A DNA stretch of 46,631 nt from Bacteroidaceae bacterium. Lineage in GTDB: Bacteria; Bacteroidota; Bacteroidia; Bacteroidales; Bacteroidaceae. The notes under the pieces were generated by a model that had not been told where the DNA came from, ran no database searches, and worked only from the letters and a program-made list of their open reading frames with translations. The position numbers and the translations under genes were made by a program. Location of the stretch: contig JAFZFO010000010.1 in assembly GCA_017555845.1 (NCBI GenBank), positions 1 to 46,631 on the forward strand, written 5' to 3'. Shown one piece after another: positions 33,875-41,057 of the stretch; the first letter of the stretch is position 1, and every line of letters starts with the position of its first letter.

Positions 33875-33911
33875 TAGGGAAAATCCTCCCTTTTTGTAGG
33901 ATTTTTCCCTA
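33875..33911. repeat. 13-bp inverted repeat upstream of the low-complexity protein gene
   Basis: TAGGGAAAATCCT (33875-33887) and AGGATTTTTCCCTA (33898-33911) are inverted copies with one bulged T and a 10-nt loop. It ends 21 nt before the -7 element at 33933, so it covers the -33 region. It could be an operator or a second terminator from the ilv side. Confidence 0.7.
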
Positions 33912-33932: not shown

Positions 33933-33940
33933 TATTTTTG
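33933..33940 (+). promoter_or_regulatory. -7 element for the low-complexity protein gene
   Basis: TATTTTTG, exact consensus, 32 nt before the ATG at 33973. No clear -33 TTTG at the usual distance; instead the right arm of the inverted repeat (33898-33911) ends there. Confidence 0.5.
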
Positions 33941-33972: not shown

Positions 33973-35256
33973 ATGAAAAAGTTTGTTTTGTTTTTATTGT
34001 TGACAACCCCTCTCCTTTCTTGGGCACAGGTCGATGACATGTATTTCGTTCCAAAGAAAGAGAAGAAGGTTCTTGTTGTCAAGAGTGCCGAGGAGGTCTA
34101 TATTGCCGATGATGAAAATCTGGTTGTTGAAGGAGACTATAGCGGTTATGATGACTATACCGATGAGTATGTTGATGAGGTAGAGGCAACATCCTACTTT
34201 ACCAACGATCTCTATGACCTTGTTGATGACTATACCTATTCAAACCGCATTGTCCGTTTCCAGTCGCCACGCAGGTTGCTCTCAAGTACCCTCTATTGGG
34301 ACTTGAAGTACAATTGCGGCATAAATGACTGGTTTGTGTACGATGATGGCTATGCCGTATATATATATCCTACGGCAAACAATTACTATTACAACTATCC
34401 CTATTACTATAACTGGACCAACAGATGGAACTGGACCTCATACCACAATTGGTATTATCCATATTACAGCTATAATAACTGGTATCACTACAACCACCAT
34501 TGGCACACTCCACACTGGCATGCTCACCATACACCAAACGTGTCATGGCGTCCATCGTACAATAATGGAAGAATTCCAACCAATGGAAATCTTGCAACAA
34601 CACGTGGTGCGACAAAACCACGCCGCGAACAGCCCGTACGTACAGTTGCAGGTAATGGCTCCCCACGTCGCGAACAGCCAAGCCGCACAGTTGCCGGCAA
34701 TACCAACCCACGCCGCGAACAGCCTGTGCGCACAGTGAACGGTAGCAGTAATCCCCGTCGTGAGCAGCCTTCACGTACAGTAAATGGCAACAACAATTTC
34801 CGTCGTGAGCAGCAGGTGCGCACAACCGCAACCGGCAGCGCCAACCCACGTCGCGAGCAGCAGGTACGCACAACTGCATCCGGCAGCGCCAACCCACGTC
34901 GCGAGCAGCAGGTACGTACAACCGGTGGCACTAACGGCCAGCGTCGTGAGAACGGCTCGTCAGGCACTGTGAATCGCCAGCACCAGTCGCGCACTTCTGT
35001 CAACAGCAGCAATGTCAAGCGCACATCTACATCCACTTCGGGCAGTGTACGCCGCAGTGACAGTGGCAGCTCTAACAGGTCTTCAGGCGGATATAGCCGT
35101 CCAAGCAGTACCAGTGTTTCACGTTCAAGCGGTAGCTCAAGCTCAAGATACAGTTCCGGCAGCAGCCGAAGCAGCAGTAGCAGCAATGGTGGCGGCAGCA
35201 GCATGAGAAGTAGCAGCGGTGGCGGTGGCGGCCGAAGCGGCGGCTCACGCAGATGA
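33973..35256 (+). CDS. Secreted low-complexity protein with RREQ tandem repeats and an S/G/R tail; function unknown
   Basis: 427 aa with a signal peptide (1-19, LLSWAQ). Layout: an acidic, tyrosine-containing segment (about 45-90, DDENLVVEGDYSGYDDYTDE), a short block that looks folded (about 91-134, QSPRRLLSSTLYWDLKYNCG), an aromatic/histidine-rich region (135-191, repeated YYY/NW and HHWHTPHWHAHH), seven basic repeats of 15-16 residues with core PRREQPVRT (216-322), and a Ser/Gly/Arg tail (about 350-427). The charge is split: acidic at the N-terminus, strongly basic at the C-terminus. No enzyme motif is seen. It is exported and lies 47 nt before an OmpP1/FadL-like gene with no terminator between, so they are probably co-transcribed. 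Distant Bacteroidota homologues with the N-terminal block are likely, but I cannot search. Confidence 0.85.
   Translation: MKKFVLFLLLTTPLLSWAQVDDMYFVPKKEKKVLVVKSAEEVYIADDENLVVEGDYSGYDDYTDEYVDEVEATSYFTNDLYDLVDDYTYSNRIVRFQSPRRLLSSTLYWDLKYNCGINDWFVYDDGYAVYIYPTANNYYYNYPYYYNWTNRWNWTSYHNWYYPYYSYNNWYHYNHHWHTPHWHAHHTPNVSWRPSYNNGRIPTNGNLATTRGATKPRREQPVRTVAGNGSPRREQPSRTVAGNTNPRREQPVRTVNGSSNPRREQPSRTVNGNNNFRREQQVRTTATGSANPRREQQVRTTASGSANPRREQQVRTTGGTNGQRRENGSSGTVNRQHQSRTSVNSSNVKRTSTSTSGSVRRSDSGSSNRSSGGYSRPSSTSVSRSSGSSSSRYSSGSSRSSSSSNGGGSSMRSSSGGGGGRSGGSRR
34618..34938 (+). repeat. Tandem repeats encoding seven RREQ units
   Basis: Seven in-frame units of 45 or 48 nt, each encoding P/F-RREQ-P/Q-V/S-RT-V/T plus a small G/N/S/A spacer. 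Units five and six are the closest at the DNA level (near-identical GGCAGCGCCAACCCACGTCG blocks about 45 nt apart), which points to recent duplication; an eighth, degenerate QRREN unit follows. Confidence 0.9.
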
Positions 35257-35303: not shown

Positions 35304-36821
35304 ATGAAACGCATATTATATTTCCTTTTCCTGCTCCCACTCGGCATGAGTGCCCAGAATATGTATGATGTGGCACCCTTCTTCGGTAACGACCTTGTAG
35401 GAACAGCACGCTTCATCGGTATGGGTGGCTCTATGAGTGCGCTGGGTGCCGATCTCTCGACAATGGGTACCAACCCTGCCGGAATGGCAATGTACCGCAG
35501 CAATGATTTCTCCTTTACCGCTGCGTTGGATGTGAACAGCAACAAGGCTCTCTATGAAGGTTCAAAGTCTTCTATGGTCGGAGCAAATGCATATGTCGGC
35601 AACACTTCATTCGTGATATCTTCGGAGTATGAGGACAGCGATCTCAAATTCCTCAACTTCGGTTTCGGATACCGTCGCAAGAATAATCTTTCGGGTGCTT
35701 TTGACATGTATGGTGCATCCAACAGCTACTCACAGCAGTATGTCTTTGAGAACCTCTACAATTCAAAGCCATTTGATTATCTGAATATCAAGAGCTCAAT
35801 GTATGATACATTCTCATACAGCTGGTTGCCATTGTTCGCAGCCGATGCCGGTCTTTATGACGAAACAGGGGAGAACTTTATCACATACCCTGATACAGCT
35901 CTTGTGTGGTACCCCGATGAGTTGGCCTTCTATGAGGAGACACGTGGCGGTGTACACGCAATAGACTTCAACCTCTCGGCAAACCTCAATGATCGTGTCT
36001 ATCTCGGTGCAACCATGAGCGTATCTGTGGTTGACTATAATAGATATTCAGAGTACAGGGAAATAGGCTCTAACAACGATATCTATATACTCGAGAACAA
36101 CCAGTATCTCAGTGGAACAGGCTTCGATATCAAATTGGGTGCCATCTTCCGTCCGTTTAAGTACTCTCCATTCAAGGTTGGTCTGGCGCTCCACACACCC
36201 ACTTGGTATAGCCTTAACCAACGCAGCTCGGCCTCAATACTTGGTCCAAGCGGAATACGTTACAGCACAACCGACAAGGAACTGTATGACGGCGTCTTGT
36301 CCGTGAGCAGCACTTTGAAGACCCCTTGGCGAGTGAATGCATCAATGGGATATACTTTCGGAACATATCTTGCACTCAATGCCGAATATGAATATGTCAA
36401 CTATGCCAAAAACAGGTTCATCGGCAACGGACAGCTTGTAAAGGCGCAGAACGAGGAGATCGGTTGCAATATGCAGGCGCAGCACACAGTGCGTGTGGGT
36501 GCCGAGGTCAATATCTCGGGTTTTGCGGTGCGCGCAGGTTACAACTATATCACTGCCCCCTTTGTGCAGGGAGCATATAAGGAACTCTATAATGCAGCAG
36601 TGACAGAGACCTCGACCGACTATATGAATCGTTTCGGCAAGAATGTCGCAACCTTGGGCTTCGGCTATCGTGGAAGCTTGTGCTATTGGGATTTCGCTTA
36701 TAAGCTTGATATACAGAAGTCCGAGTTCTATCCCTTCTATGACTACGATTTCGTGAATCCGGGTGCGGCGGTAAGAGAAATGAACCATTCGATTGTCGCA
36801 ACAGTGGGCCTGCGTCTCTGA
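35304..36821 (+). CDS. OmpP1/FadL/TodX-like outer membrane protein
   Basis: 505 aa from the ATG at 35304 (MKRILYFLFLLPLGMSAQN), with signal peptide. An in-frame upstream ATG at 35253 overlaps the previous gene and lacks a leader-like sequence. The mature start DVAPFFGNDLVGTARFIGMGGSMSALGAD, then the TNPAG box, is characteristic of Bacteroidota FadL/OmpP1-type barrels, often labelled hemin receptor. Alternating hydrophobic strands run to a C-terminal leucine after aromatic residues. It would form a hydrophobic-solute channel in the outer membrane; the solute is unknown. Probably co-transcribed with the low-complexity protein. Confidence 0.85.
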   Translation: MKRILYFLFLLPLGMSAQNMYDVAPFFGNDLVGTARFIGMGGSMSALGADLSTMGTNPAGMAMYRSNDFSFTAALDVNSNKALYEGSKSSMVGANAYVGNTSFVISSEYEDSDLKFLNFGFGYRRKNNLSGAFDMYGASNSYSQQYVFENLYNSKPFDYLNIKSSMYDTFSYSWLPLFAADAGLYDETGENFITYPDTALVWYPDELAFYEETRGGVHAIDFNLSANLNDRVYLGATMSVSVVDYNRYSEYREIGSNNDIYILENNQYLSGTGFDIKLGAIFRPFKYSPFKVGLALHTPTWYSLNQRSSASILGPSGIRYSTTDKELYDGVLSVSSTLKTPWRVNASMGYTFGTYLALNAEYEYVNYAKNRFIGNGQLVKAQNEEIGCNMQAQHTVRVGAEVNISGFAVRAGYNYITAPFVQGAYKELYNAAVTETSTDYMNRFGKNVATLGFGYRGSLCYWDFAYKLDIQKSEFYPFYDYDFVNPGAAVREMNHSIVATVGLRL

Positions 36822-36847
36822 TGGCATGACGGAACATCCATAAACGG

Positions 36848-36875
36848 GAAAGGAACTGCCATGGCAGTTCCTTTC
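36848..36875. terminator. Bidirectional terminator between OmpP1-like and DUF4421 genes
   Basis: GAAAGGAACTGCC-AT-GGCAGTTCCTTTC is a perfect palindrome lying 26 nt after one stop and 6 nt after the other, between convergent genes. Confidence 0.85.
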
Positions 36876-36881
36876 TCGTTG

Positions 36882-37937
36882 TTATTGTTTTCTTTTCCAG
36901 AAATAGAATCCTATATAGGCCTCCAACACTCCAAAGCCATCTCTTATGTACAGGTCGCCCTTGTTGAAACAATAGGTGTGCGATTCAAGTGATGCTCCGG
37001 CGTAGTACCGGTTATTGTTGTATACCAGTGCCGCACGTGTCATGAAGTCCATGTTCATGCCGGCCTGCAGGCTGCTGTTGTCAGTGTATTCAAGCCTTGC
37101 CTTCTTGTAGCTCACAGCCGGCTCAAACGATATTCCTGCCAGGAAATTCTTTGAGAAAACCCAGTTGTAACCATATCCGAGGCTGATGCTGAAGTCATTC
37201 ATCCTTACCTCCTTGAACTTGAGCTCATCCACCAAATCTGCTTTGATAATGGGATCAAGCCCGTCATGGTTGAATGATAGTTTCTGCCAGTTGTATCCTG
37301 CACCCAGGATGAATGAACCGGCGCTTGCACGTTGTATTGTCGACTGTCCCAATGCGGCAGAGTAGGAGAAACGCTTGTTGAATGCATAGCATAGTCCTGC
37401 TCCCAACTGCCTTACGGTTGTCAGTCCATCGCACTCCCAGCTCCCGTCTTTCAGCAGTCCCTCTCCGCTACCGAACCCTTCGAGCCTGTTGACCTTGTAT
37501 CCTTCGCTGCCCTTGCGGTAAAAGAGGTCAAGTGCGAATCTTGTAGAGTAGAGGCTCGTGTTGAACTCCTGTAGCGGGCGGTTCTCCCTCAAGTCAAAGC
37601 TGTAGCCTACAATGAGCCATCTCCAACCAATGTTCAATGACATCACGTTGCGCCCATCGGGTACAATGCCTATGCTTTGTCCGGCAGTGCCGAAACTGTA
37701 ATGCTCGTAGCTGTATGAATACTCCGGCATGAACGTCATGTTATACCGGTTCTTCTCAATGTATGTGGTGTCAACATCATTCAACACGTAACCTATGAAG
37801 TCTACAGTGCCCTGCACTATCTTCTTGAGCTTGCCGCCGGTGTTCTCCTGCGCAGCAGCATGAATGGAGAACATCAGGACAATAATTGTCATTATTGCTC
37901 TGATACCATATATGTAACTGCTGCCTTTTGTCTTCAT
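36882..37937 (-). CDS. DUF4421 domain outer-membrane protein
   Basis: 351 aa with a signal-like N-terminus (about 1-29, IHAAAQ). After a short helix it is beta-rich with alternating hydrophobic strands and ends FYFWKRKQ. DUF4421 is a Bacteroidota family of predicted outer-membrane barrels with no proven role. Motifs such as DVDTTYIEKNRYNMTFMPEY and the IGWRWLIVGYSFDL strand fit it. It is the last gene in a five-gene minus-strand operon, starting 2 nt after the Gfo/Idh/MocA stop. Confidence 0.85.
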   Translation of the reverse strand: MKTKGSSYIYGIRAIMTIIVLMFSIHAAAQENTGGKLKKIVQGTVDFIGYVLNDVDTTYIEKNRYNMTFMPEYSYSYEHYSFGTAGQSIGIVPDGRNVMSLNIGWRWLIVGYSFDLRENRPLQEFNTSLYSTRFALDLFYRKGSEGYKVNRLEGFGSGEGLLKDGSWECDGLTTVRQLGAGLCYAFNKRFSYSAALGQSTIQRASAGSFILGAGYNWQKLSFNHDGLDPIIKADLVDELKFKEVRMNDFSISLGYGYNWVFSKNFLAGISFEPAVSYKKARLEYTDNSSLQAGMNMDFMTRAALVYNNNRYYAGASLESHTYCFNKGDLYIRDGFGVLEAYIGFYFWKRKQ

Positions 37938-38933: not shown

Positions 38934-41057
38934 TTAGTTATAGAAATTCCATGACAATCCGAACCACAATGTCGATGGGTTCAGCGGATGGTGCGGAACA
39001 AGGAAATAGTTGCTGCTTCCCAGCCCCTTGTTCACGTGGTAATATTTCACATAGAAACGTGTCTGTTTCAACAGGAAGTTTGCATATACCGTTGCAAGCG
39101 GGTAGTTGCCGATCTTGATTCTGGCATTCTGGTTCTGCTGTACGAACTGTCCCAGTGCCGGCATATACTCCGGTGCATAGTAACTTGTGAAGTACCATGC
39201 GTCGGCTCCAATCTCGGTGTGCAGCACCTTGGCTATTGTGAACTTCAGGAAGAAGTTAGCGTATGCATTCAATGCCGGCAACGGCAACACATCCTGATTG
39301 CTGCTGTACTGGTAAGTCACCGCGGTGTTCAGGTTAAGGATACCGTACTTGAAATCCTGTTTCAGCGATGCTGCAATCACCTGTATGTTACCATTCTCCT
39401 GTTCCACGTTGAAGCGGTTCAGGTAGTCGCTCCTGTTTGGTGCAAGAATGGAGTGGTTCGCAATGTACGTGTAGTTCTTCACGTTCTCCACGCTCACATT
39501 CAGCCTTGTCCTTGAATATGGAACCTCAATGCTGCCCTCAATGCGTGTCTTGAACTCTTTTGCAAGGTCATTGTCCCACCAGAAGTGCTCCGAGTGGTAG
39601 TGGCGGTAGTAGAACGAAGGCCTGTTGTTCTTCATGAACGCCTTGGCCGAAATGTTTATGTCCTTCTTCCATAGCTTGAAGTTCAGGTCCACACCTCCGT
39701 CCAACGAGAATGCTCCCAGGTCGCTGCCTATCACGGCTGTCGAGCCCTCGGCATGGTAGCGCAAATGCTTGCCTCTTGTGCTCGATACAGCTCCGCCAAC
39801 ATACAAAGAGTGCTCGTTATATGACTTTATGCACTCCTGTGGGGTGCCGGCGATGGTGTCGGGCAAACGGTAACGGTCATATTTGTATTCGGCAAAAGCC
39901 GTGATGTTTGCAAAAGCCCATTTCCTGAATCCTTCGCATAGTGACAGCGCAACCCTGTTGTCAATAGAAAGGTCATTGGTGTTGTCTACCGAGTCGTGTG
40001 GCAGGAACGTGTCGGCATAGTAGTTCCTTGGCAGTCTGTGGTTAATGTACTCATGGCGCAGGAACGACACCTCGGCAGTGTGTGTCAGGCGCGCCACGCT
40101 CACGAACTCCGTTGCAATGGAGTCATTTGCCACTTCCGGTATGTCTGCAACCGCAATAGTGTCCGATGGTACATCTGTCGTGTCTGCGGCAATAGCATCC
40201 GCTTCCTTCTTCCTGTAATATCCCCAGTTGTAGTTATGTGTGAAGAACAGGTCATAGACATCGTTTCTGCTCCATGTGGCATCCAATTTTACCGGAATGT
40301 CGGCAGTGCCCATATTTGTTCCTCCGCCATCGGTGTCCTCGGGGCGTGTGATGTAACGGTCATCGGTAATACCGCCGTTCTCTCTCGTCTTCATTTTATA
40401 GCGGCTTGCCAGCAAGTGATAGTTGTACCTGTCACTGCGGTAGAACGAGAATAGTGAGAAGTTTATCAGTGATGTCGACTGCTTGTCATATCGTCCTCGG
40501 CCATAGAGATAGTCGAACAGGAATCCAATGCCGAAATGCTTGCCTGCATTTGTAGTAAAATAGGCCCTGAAACGGTCGTCTCCATCCACCTTGTTGCCCG
40601 ATGAATGATAGCTCAGATTAGTGTATGGCGATTTTGTGTCAGTGAATATGAACCTGTCAGGGGTGGTGTAGAAGTAGTCGAACGGCTGCAGAAAGTCATA
40701 AGCCGTGCCGGTCGGGCGGTTGAAGTACAACCTTGTCTCTCTTGGAGTACCCATGTTGCCCAGATAGTTGTATTCGCCGTTGATGCCCTCGGTAAGATGC
40801 CAGTTCTGGAACATGAACTGCAGGGTGTCGGCATTGATCTCCATCTTGTTGCCGAATCTCCTGTCCACCTTCCATTGGTGTATCTCCTTCGGGACAATGA
40901 GCTCTTTCTTTGTGCTGTCCTTGGGGTTGTCCTTGAATGGGCTGAACACATCGCCGTGTCCCAGTCCACCGCCGCCGTCGGTGCTCTTCTTGAGGCTCTG
41001 ACCGCTTGCAATTACGGGTACGGCAATGAGTAACAGGTATAGTAGTCTCTTGATCAT
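38934..41057 (-). CDS. Putative porin (Porin_10 type), outer membrane beta-barrel
   Basis: 707 aa with a signal peptide (1-19, PVIASGQ). After a Gly-rich linker it has a long run of amphipathic beta strands ending GLSWNFYN, an aromatic C-terminus typical of barrel insertion. The block WKVDRRFGNKMEINADTLQFMFQNWHLTEG and the RPTGTAYDFLQPFDYF region match the Bacteroidota putative porin family (Porin_10). It is a large outer-membrane channel with unknown cargo. It starts 8 nt after the stop of the 56-aa membrane protein. Confidence 0.88.
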   Translation of the reverse strand: MIKRLLYLLLIAVPVIASGQSLKKSTDGGGGLGHGDVFSPFKDNPKDSTKKELIVPKEIHQWKVDRRFGNKMEINADTLQFMFQNWHLTEGINGEYNYLGNMGTPRETRLYFNRPTGTAYDFLQPFDYFYTTPDRFIFTDTKSPYTNLSYHSSGNKVDGDDRFRAYFTTNAGKHFGIGFLFDYLYGRGRYDKQSTSLINFSLFSFYRSDRYNYHLLASRYKMKTRENGGITDDRYITRPEDTDGGGTNMGTADIPVKLDATWSRNDVYDLFFTHNYNWGYYRKKEADAIAADTTDVPSDTIAVADIPEVANDSIATEFVSVARLTHTAEVSFLRHEYINHRLPRNYYADTFLPHDSVDNTNDLSIDNRVALSLCEGFRKWAFANITAFAEYKYDRYRLPDTIAGTPQECIKSYNEHSLYVGGAVSSTRGKHLRYHAEGSTAVIGSDLGAFSLDGGVDLNFKLWKKDINISAKAFMKNNRPSFYYRHYHSEHFWWDNDLAKEFKTRIEGSIEVPYSRTRLNVSVENVKNYTYIANHSILAPNRSDYLNRFNVEQENGNIQVIAASLKQDFKYGILNLNTAVTYQYSSNQDVLPLPALNAYANFFLKFTIAKVLHTEIGADAWYFTSYYAPEYMPALGQFVQQNQNARIKIGNYPLATVYANFLLKQTRFYVKYYHVNKGLGSSNYFLVPHHPLNPSTLWFGLSWNFYN

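Follow-up and report, generated by a model that had tools for sequence, protein, structure and literature searches.

A probably disordered exported protein and its neighboring FadL-fold barrel in a Bacteroidaceae genome and across Bacteroidota

The partner gene, the barrel gene and their control region

The window, a stretch of 46,631 nucleotides from a Bacteroidaceae bacterium (contig JAFZFO010000010.1 of assembly GCA_017555845.1), carries two consecutive forward-strand genes that are the subject of this study. The first (33973..35256, +) starts with ATG and encodes a protein of 427 amino acids, here called the partner, with an ordinary (non-lipoprotein) signal peptide. The second (35304..36821, +) begins 47 bp past the stop of the partner gene, runs in the same direction and encodes a protein of 505 amino acids that a predicted model and Foldseek searches indicate to be an outer membrane barrel. 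The signal peptide of the partner (33973..34029, +, residues 1-19; cleavage site set by eye, without a predictor) overlaps a helix at residues 2-16 of the predicted model and is followed by a DDMYFVP motif (34033..34053, +, residues 21-27). This motif lies in an acidic, Tyr-rich head with a conserved core (34030..34377, +, residues 20-135), the core extending from YSNRIVRF (residue 89) up to IYPT. Next comes an aromatic/His block (34378..34557, +, residues 136-195), which is 38% Tyr, Trp and Phe and 15% His, contains HHWHTPHWHAHH with its first residue at 175, and keeps its aromatic character, not its His, across relatives. Seven RREQ repeats (34621..34908, +, residues 217-312), confined to few species, start at residues 217, 232, 247, 262, 277, 293 and 309 within a span of 45-48 bp DNA tandem repeats (34618-34924). 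A Ser/Gly/Arg tail (34963..35253, +, residues 331-427), in which Ser and Gly make up 60% of residues and YSRPSSTS begins at residue 374, ends the protein with RR. Net charge is -15 over residues 21-135 and +14 over residues 331-427. The charge-segregated layout proposed in the initial annotation, with its acidic head, aromatic/His block, seven repeats and Ser/Gly/Arg tail, is real.

Shuffling the mature partner sequence 5000 times never reproduced the acidic head or the aromatic/His block (0/5000 each). The charge of the basic tail was reached in 74/5000 shuffles and, taken alone, is therefore only mildly unusual. Among 92 open reading frames of at least 250 amino acids from the window and 13 loci of the order (14 sources, with frames on both strands counted), exactly 14 passed the tail test, one per source, and the same 14 passed the aromatic test. 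The description of an exported, low-complexity protein of no known family also held, as the partner matched no family in Pfam, NCBIfam or PADLOC and a profile of its head found no solved structure at E 10. A role as a defense system was rejected on the absence of a PADLOC model match. The predicted model has a pLDDT of 44, so that the partner is probably an intrinsically disordered protein, although so low a value could instead stem from a thin alignment. Such proteins may have been annotated as vitellogenin II precursor, a designation for which we found no confirmation in the literature.

The operator-like repeat noted previously upstream of the genes was found at 33875-33908 (+), before the operon, in the form TAGGGAAAATCC-N10-TAGGATTTTTCC, and is kept across the genus and by some members of the family. 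All 28 genus upstream regions reached a score of 15 or more out of 20, and 26 of them reached 16 or more, against a maximum of 14 in 300 random A+T-rich sequences (80% A+T, not matched for dinucleotides; a separate control used window sequence shuffled by dinucleotide). Outside the genus, scores of at least 16 occurred in 3/31 cases (three genomes of the same family), 0/20 and 0/17. These genus scores, the random control and the outside-genus counts indicate an operator that is real but lineage-restricted. Six genus genomes searched whole had one operator each, before the partner-barrel operon. Separately, a second operator-like site with two mismatches lies in the window genome (G000) before a gene for a small, exported-looking protein (G000:C66:30147-30180; L163). 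Between the operator and the partner gene, TATTTTTG (33933..33940, +) is a -7-like element that fits the Bacteroides -7 consensus, TAnnTTTG, and a consensus scan placed a terminator-like hairpin (36843..36880, +) 3' of the barrel gene. The next genes in the window lie on the other strand (36882-37937, -, and 38934-41057, -) and include those for proteins of the DUF4421 and Porin_10 families.

Relatives of the partner

With partner residues 1-135 as the query, matches were obtained in 35/61 genomes searched, including 34/37 within the genus, and a profile built from 25 heads matched 125/392 genomes of the order. The N-terminal block, whose lack of conservation would have spoken against the initial annotation, is thus conserved. 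A set of 96 partners, in which identical sequences were counted once, was then compared; loci L019, L027, L054, L134 and L142 yielded no protein for it, L032, L097 and L138 were omitted, and 13 partners from outside the class and four later ones from within it are not part of it. A strict DDxYF-like motif in the DDMYFVP region and the core R[IL]xRF were each present in 28/28 genus partners, and the motif Y-x-R-x-x-S-T precedes the tail in 27/28. Across the 96 members, a loose D-x-Y form (scored without a chance control) was found in 92, a net-negative first third in 93, a Tyr/Trp-rich stretch in 95, a positively charged final 100 amino acids in all 96 and a C-terminal Arg in 89. The middle repeats, in contrast to these kept features, vary between species, and three or more RREQ copies occur in just 4/28 genus members; the seven repeats are present in the window protein as first described, but they are local, and we rejected them as a functional unit. 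Judged from these sequences, the partner family keeps its layout and composition and not its repeats, the retained elements being the DDxY motif, a short core, the acidic head, an aromatic block and a tail rich in Arg, which usually terminates in Arg. Conservation of layout and composition rather than of sequence is why the partner escapes family databases: no single family matches more than 1/41 partner-family members tested.

The same comparison bears on the suggestion that the partner is a secreted protein that binds Cu or Zn through clusters of His. The HHWHTPHWHAHH segment at residue 175 and a clustered-His pattern in 17/28 genus members are what such a protein might show, but His content ranges from 0 to 4.9% over the 96 members, with a mean of 1.7%, and the clustered pattern is found in 15/68 members outside the genus. 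The family as a whole is unlikely to serve in metal binding, which was rejected as the main role because His is not conserved; as an account of the partner, we regard it as very improbable.

One genus member presents a different arrangement. At L097 (G005:C99, 1883-4501) the partner tail is in frame with the mature part of the barrel, the signal peptide of the barrel is missing and the partner N terminus lies in another frame; L019 is likewise listed. The contig is short, and the join at L097 may reflect a fusion that exists in nature, damage to the gene or misassembly.

The barrel and its pairing with the partner

The predicted model of the barrel has a pLDDT of 89 and forms a 14-strand barrel of the FadL fold, in agreement with the OmpP1/FadL-like barrel named in the initial annotation. 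Its best matches among the solved structures listed were BamG, FadL, TodX and CymD, with Bacteroides thetaiotaomicron BamG as the top Foldseek match. By sequence, the window barrel matched no solved structure at E 10, no Pfam family at E 10 (Toluene_X, PF03349, included) and no NCBIfam family (NF033709, PorV/PorQ, included), whereas at E 0.01 PF03349 matched 16/28 and NF033709 matched 23/28 of its relatives. The barrel therefore differs from FadL, TodX and the other Toluene_X proteins, and from PorV/PorQ, in lacking a match to the corresponding model; to our knowledge, classical FadL has no disordered partner. In the model, helices at 20-63 precede the strands, as would be expected for a FadL-type plug, and N57-P58-A59, which resembles an NPA motif that the structure entry of a FadL mutant names, is invariant in 28/28 aligned barrels.

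These features raise the question of whether the barrel moves a hydrophobic compound in the manner of FadL or TodX, with the aromatic block of the partner receiving or delivering it on the periplasmic side. The closeness of the fold to CymD, TodX, FadL and BamG, the invariant Asn-Pro-Ala and the nearly universal Tyr/Trp-rich stretch of the partners all fit such a role. However, a disordered acceptor of 400 amino acids with a long basic tail would be unusual for a ligand carrier, and the window barrel is without a Toluene_X match, so that we consider ligand transfer rather unlikely.

In the window genome (83% complete), the barrel has a single match. A profile of 28 barrel sequences matched 377/392 genomes of the order, mostly once (with up to three candidates scored per genome), 108/119 genomes at the class level and 64/99 in a phylum sample, where genomes outside the class accounted for 41/75. 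Because it is absent from 15/392 order genomes, 11/119 class genomes and 34/75 genomes outside the class, including all 21 sampled genomes of the outside-class family f174, the barrel is neither universal nor proven to be ancestral to the phylum.

Several samples show the partner and the barrel together. The barrel was found in 33/33 genomes selected for carrying the partner, and in 34/34 (these 33 and the window genome) it lies downstream on the same strand, with start-to-start distances of 0.96 to 1.9 kb. In order genomes with compared positions, the two adjoin in 75/79 (81 listed partner positions were taken, judged to have a listed barrel, and 79 were common to both lists); in the other four the matches are on separate contigs, and in three of these the partner lies no more than about 1 kb from where its contig begins. 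Of 20 selected order loci in which the barrel was present and the partner profile gave no match, 20 carry a gene for a protein with this layout immediately upstream. With the barrel as the starting point, a partner lies upstream in 21/23 class loci (17/19 and a further 4/4), where L143 was scored as positive although its N terminus is unresolved, and in 13/13 loci from outside the class, two of them behind antisense frames. Altogether, 54/56 loci not selected for the partner have one upstream of the barrel; the 20 order, 19 class and 13 outside-class loci were hand-picked, mostly from higher-scoring barrel rows, and are a nonrandom sample, the 20 order loci having additionally been chosen for an absent partner profile match. 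The pairing is thus shown, at the level of sequence, across the order, the class and beyond, and this conserved pair points to an old cell envelope module, with the qualification that adjacency of two genes need not mean binding of their products. Three genomes are of separate note: G501 (L134) and G507 (L142), at the class level, have the barrel and no such partner upstream, which makes them natural cases for testing dispensability, and the order genome G091 has a partner profile match and no barrel match among the up to three candidates scored.

The wider gene neighborhood likewise appears to show the age of the pair. In 29/39 order and class loci, assessed by eye, a prolyl-tRNA synthetase-like gene stands in front of the pair and points away from it, and the two such neighbors that were tested both match proS_fam_I above the cut-off. 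In some gut relatives, the divergent neighbor is prmA-like (one tested). Other genes near the pair are more variable. In 8/13 outside-class loci (L166-L168, L171, L172, L175, L177 and L178), the pair is preceded by an extra gene for a protein of about 245-273 amino acids with a PTAG- or PSAG-like motif. Among five of these that were tested, three resemble the exopolysaccharide protein YjbH weakly, one of them above the Pfam cut-off, and none of the five was named as YjbH by NCBIfam. At four order loci (L102, L104, L109 and L126), genes for small membrane proteins that look alike by eye precede the pair on the same strand, and the one tested is a DUF308 protein with weak likeness to HdeD.

Location of the partner and possible roles of the pair

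The signal region of the window protein ends in LLSWAQ without a lipobox Cys, and ordinary signal peptides are also present in the genus partners (28) and, after correction, in 31 order partners with a profile match. Among the 96 distinct partners, 30 are putative lipoproteins, called by regular expression after three false calls (L035, L036 and L129) were struck by eye; they comprise 14/20 order proteins without a profile match and 16/17 class proteins. The 13 partners from outside the class all have a CYT lipobox Cys (12 GCYT and 1 SCYT). Passages of the literature describe the known surface export signal of this phylum as acidic and near the Cys (PMC5080379), with two or more acidic residues within the first six positions (PMC12578637). 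This rule derives from few species and is silent on nonlipidated partners such as the window protein. No acidic residue is found at +2 to +7 in 29/30 lipoprotein partners (the remaining one has D/E), and 2/13 of those from outside the class have a single Glu at +4, none having two acidic residues. Because the lipidated relatives mostly lack the acidic export signal, we infer that the ancestral partner was a lipoprotein on the inner, periplasmic face of the outer membrane, as the pattern suggests. A surface or matrix-forming role, as in the initial annotation, is possible, but the same 29/30 relatives make it less likely than a periplasm-facing one.

This has consequences for a reading that makes the barrel a dedicated exporter, or an anchor at the cell surface, with the partner as its cargo, a sticky surface matrix. 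SprF serves SprB and offers an analogue for such export. FadL-fold barrels of the phylum partner surface proteins, BamG binding BamH, and a substrate-shuttling role has been proposed for PorV, according to portions of one study (PMC12578637). The aromatic and basic composition of the partner would be sticky, and the window partner, with its ordinary signal peptide, could leave the cell. Set against these points are the scarcity of acid at +2 to +7 in the lipoprotein relatives, the predicted plug-like helices of the barrel and the partner's lack of a match to any type IX sorting model. The Pfam and NCBIfam libraries include type IX C-terminal sorting models, and the partner matched none of these families (0), on which ground we rejected it as type IX cargo and by which it also departs from the PorV/PorQ system. 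Export of the partner by the barrel is, in our estimate, unlikely.

The partner could alternatively be a pilot or chaperone that assists the assembly or stability of this one barrel. Its gene directly precedes that of the barrel wherever the two were seen together, and its relatives are lipidated and probably periplasm facing. Pilot proteins, however, are usually small and folded, and two class genomes keep the barrel with no partner upstream, so that an assembly factor seems a distinctly improbable answer.

Among the closest described systems is BamG/BamH of the Bacteroidota BAM complex, in which a FadL-fold barrel likewise has a partner; the genes for BamG2/BamH2 form a putative operon, according to part of one report (PMC12578637). 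BamH is a surface lipoprotein resolved by cryo-electron microscopy, whereas the window partner is predicted to be disordered and carries no surface signal. We rejected the identification of the barrel as BamG itself: the BamG model NF053685 (cut-off, 250 bits) had its only match in the window genome (G000) in another gene (C5:24042-25235; 332.7 bits), the window barrel being absent from its matches at E 10, and in two relatives it matched the paralogous barrel weakly, at about 30 bits. The tyrosine-rich feature described in a passage of PMC12578637 is a BamA loop and not the partner protein. The portions of two BAM papers available to us (PMC12611786 and PMC12578637) describe BamG and yielded no mention of the partner-barrel pair; nor did we find a published description of the pair in partly accessible sources whose scope mostly excludes subscription journals, preprints and supplements.

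Our main reading, to which we give a probability of about 0.45, is that the partner is a disordered partner of the adjacent FadL-type barrel and that the two form an old outer membrane module. The conserved pairing, the lipid-anchored relatives and the multivalent composition fit a disordered protein that would bind the barrel and reach into the periplasm. In the lineage of the window, the lipid anchor appears to have given way to an ordinary signal peptide. The nonlipidated partner would therefore have to be kept in place through contacts with other proteins, of which the barrel is the most likely one. In a tentative working model, aromatic-arginine and charge contacts would join the head and the aromatic block to the barrel and to one another. 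The basic Ser/Gly/Arg tail would extend into the periplasm and bind an anionic envelope polymer, for example, peptidoglycan. Binding of the tail to such a polymer would tether or cluster the barrel, and we favor tethering or clustering through the basic tail over export, ligand hand-over and chaperoning.

The combination of an aromatic block with an arginine tail is reminiscent of FUS. We speculate, as an unlikely extension of the model, that the partner forms condensate-like assemblies around the barrel at the periplasmic side of the outer membrane and so ties that membrane to the cell wall. We know of no counterpart for such condensate-like organization of the envelope around a dedicated barrel, which, if true, would extend from Bacteroidales of the gut to remote lineages of the phylum. 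Apart from this speculation, the pair represents a gap in the envelope parts list of Bacteroidota, given that almost every order genome sampled has the barrel and that a dedicated, probably disordered partner accompanies it even in remote lineages of the phylum. With the two recognized as belonging together, a function can be tested directly in model strains, and the existence of lipoprotein and ordinary secreted forms of the partner constitutes a natural experiment.

A candidate orthologue of the barrel, by description only, is the FadL-type outer membrane protein PG1626/PGN_0477 of Porphyromonas gingivalis. Passages in the literature describe PG1626 as a phylum-specific putative hemin receptor of 554 amino acids that C. 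hutchinsonii lacks and one Chlorobi species has (PMC1887533) and as a FadL outer membrane receptor (PMC10470040). It appears as a minor band that copurified with PorK/PorN without cross-links, according to part of one report (PMC4980022), and among 20 listed vesicle proteins in each of two strains, in an excerpt of another (PMC4335976). If PG1626 is the orthologue, the barrel would be abundant in vesicles.
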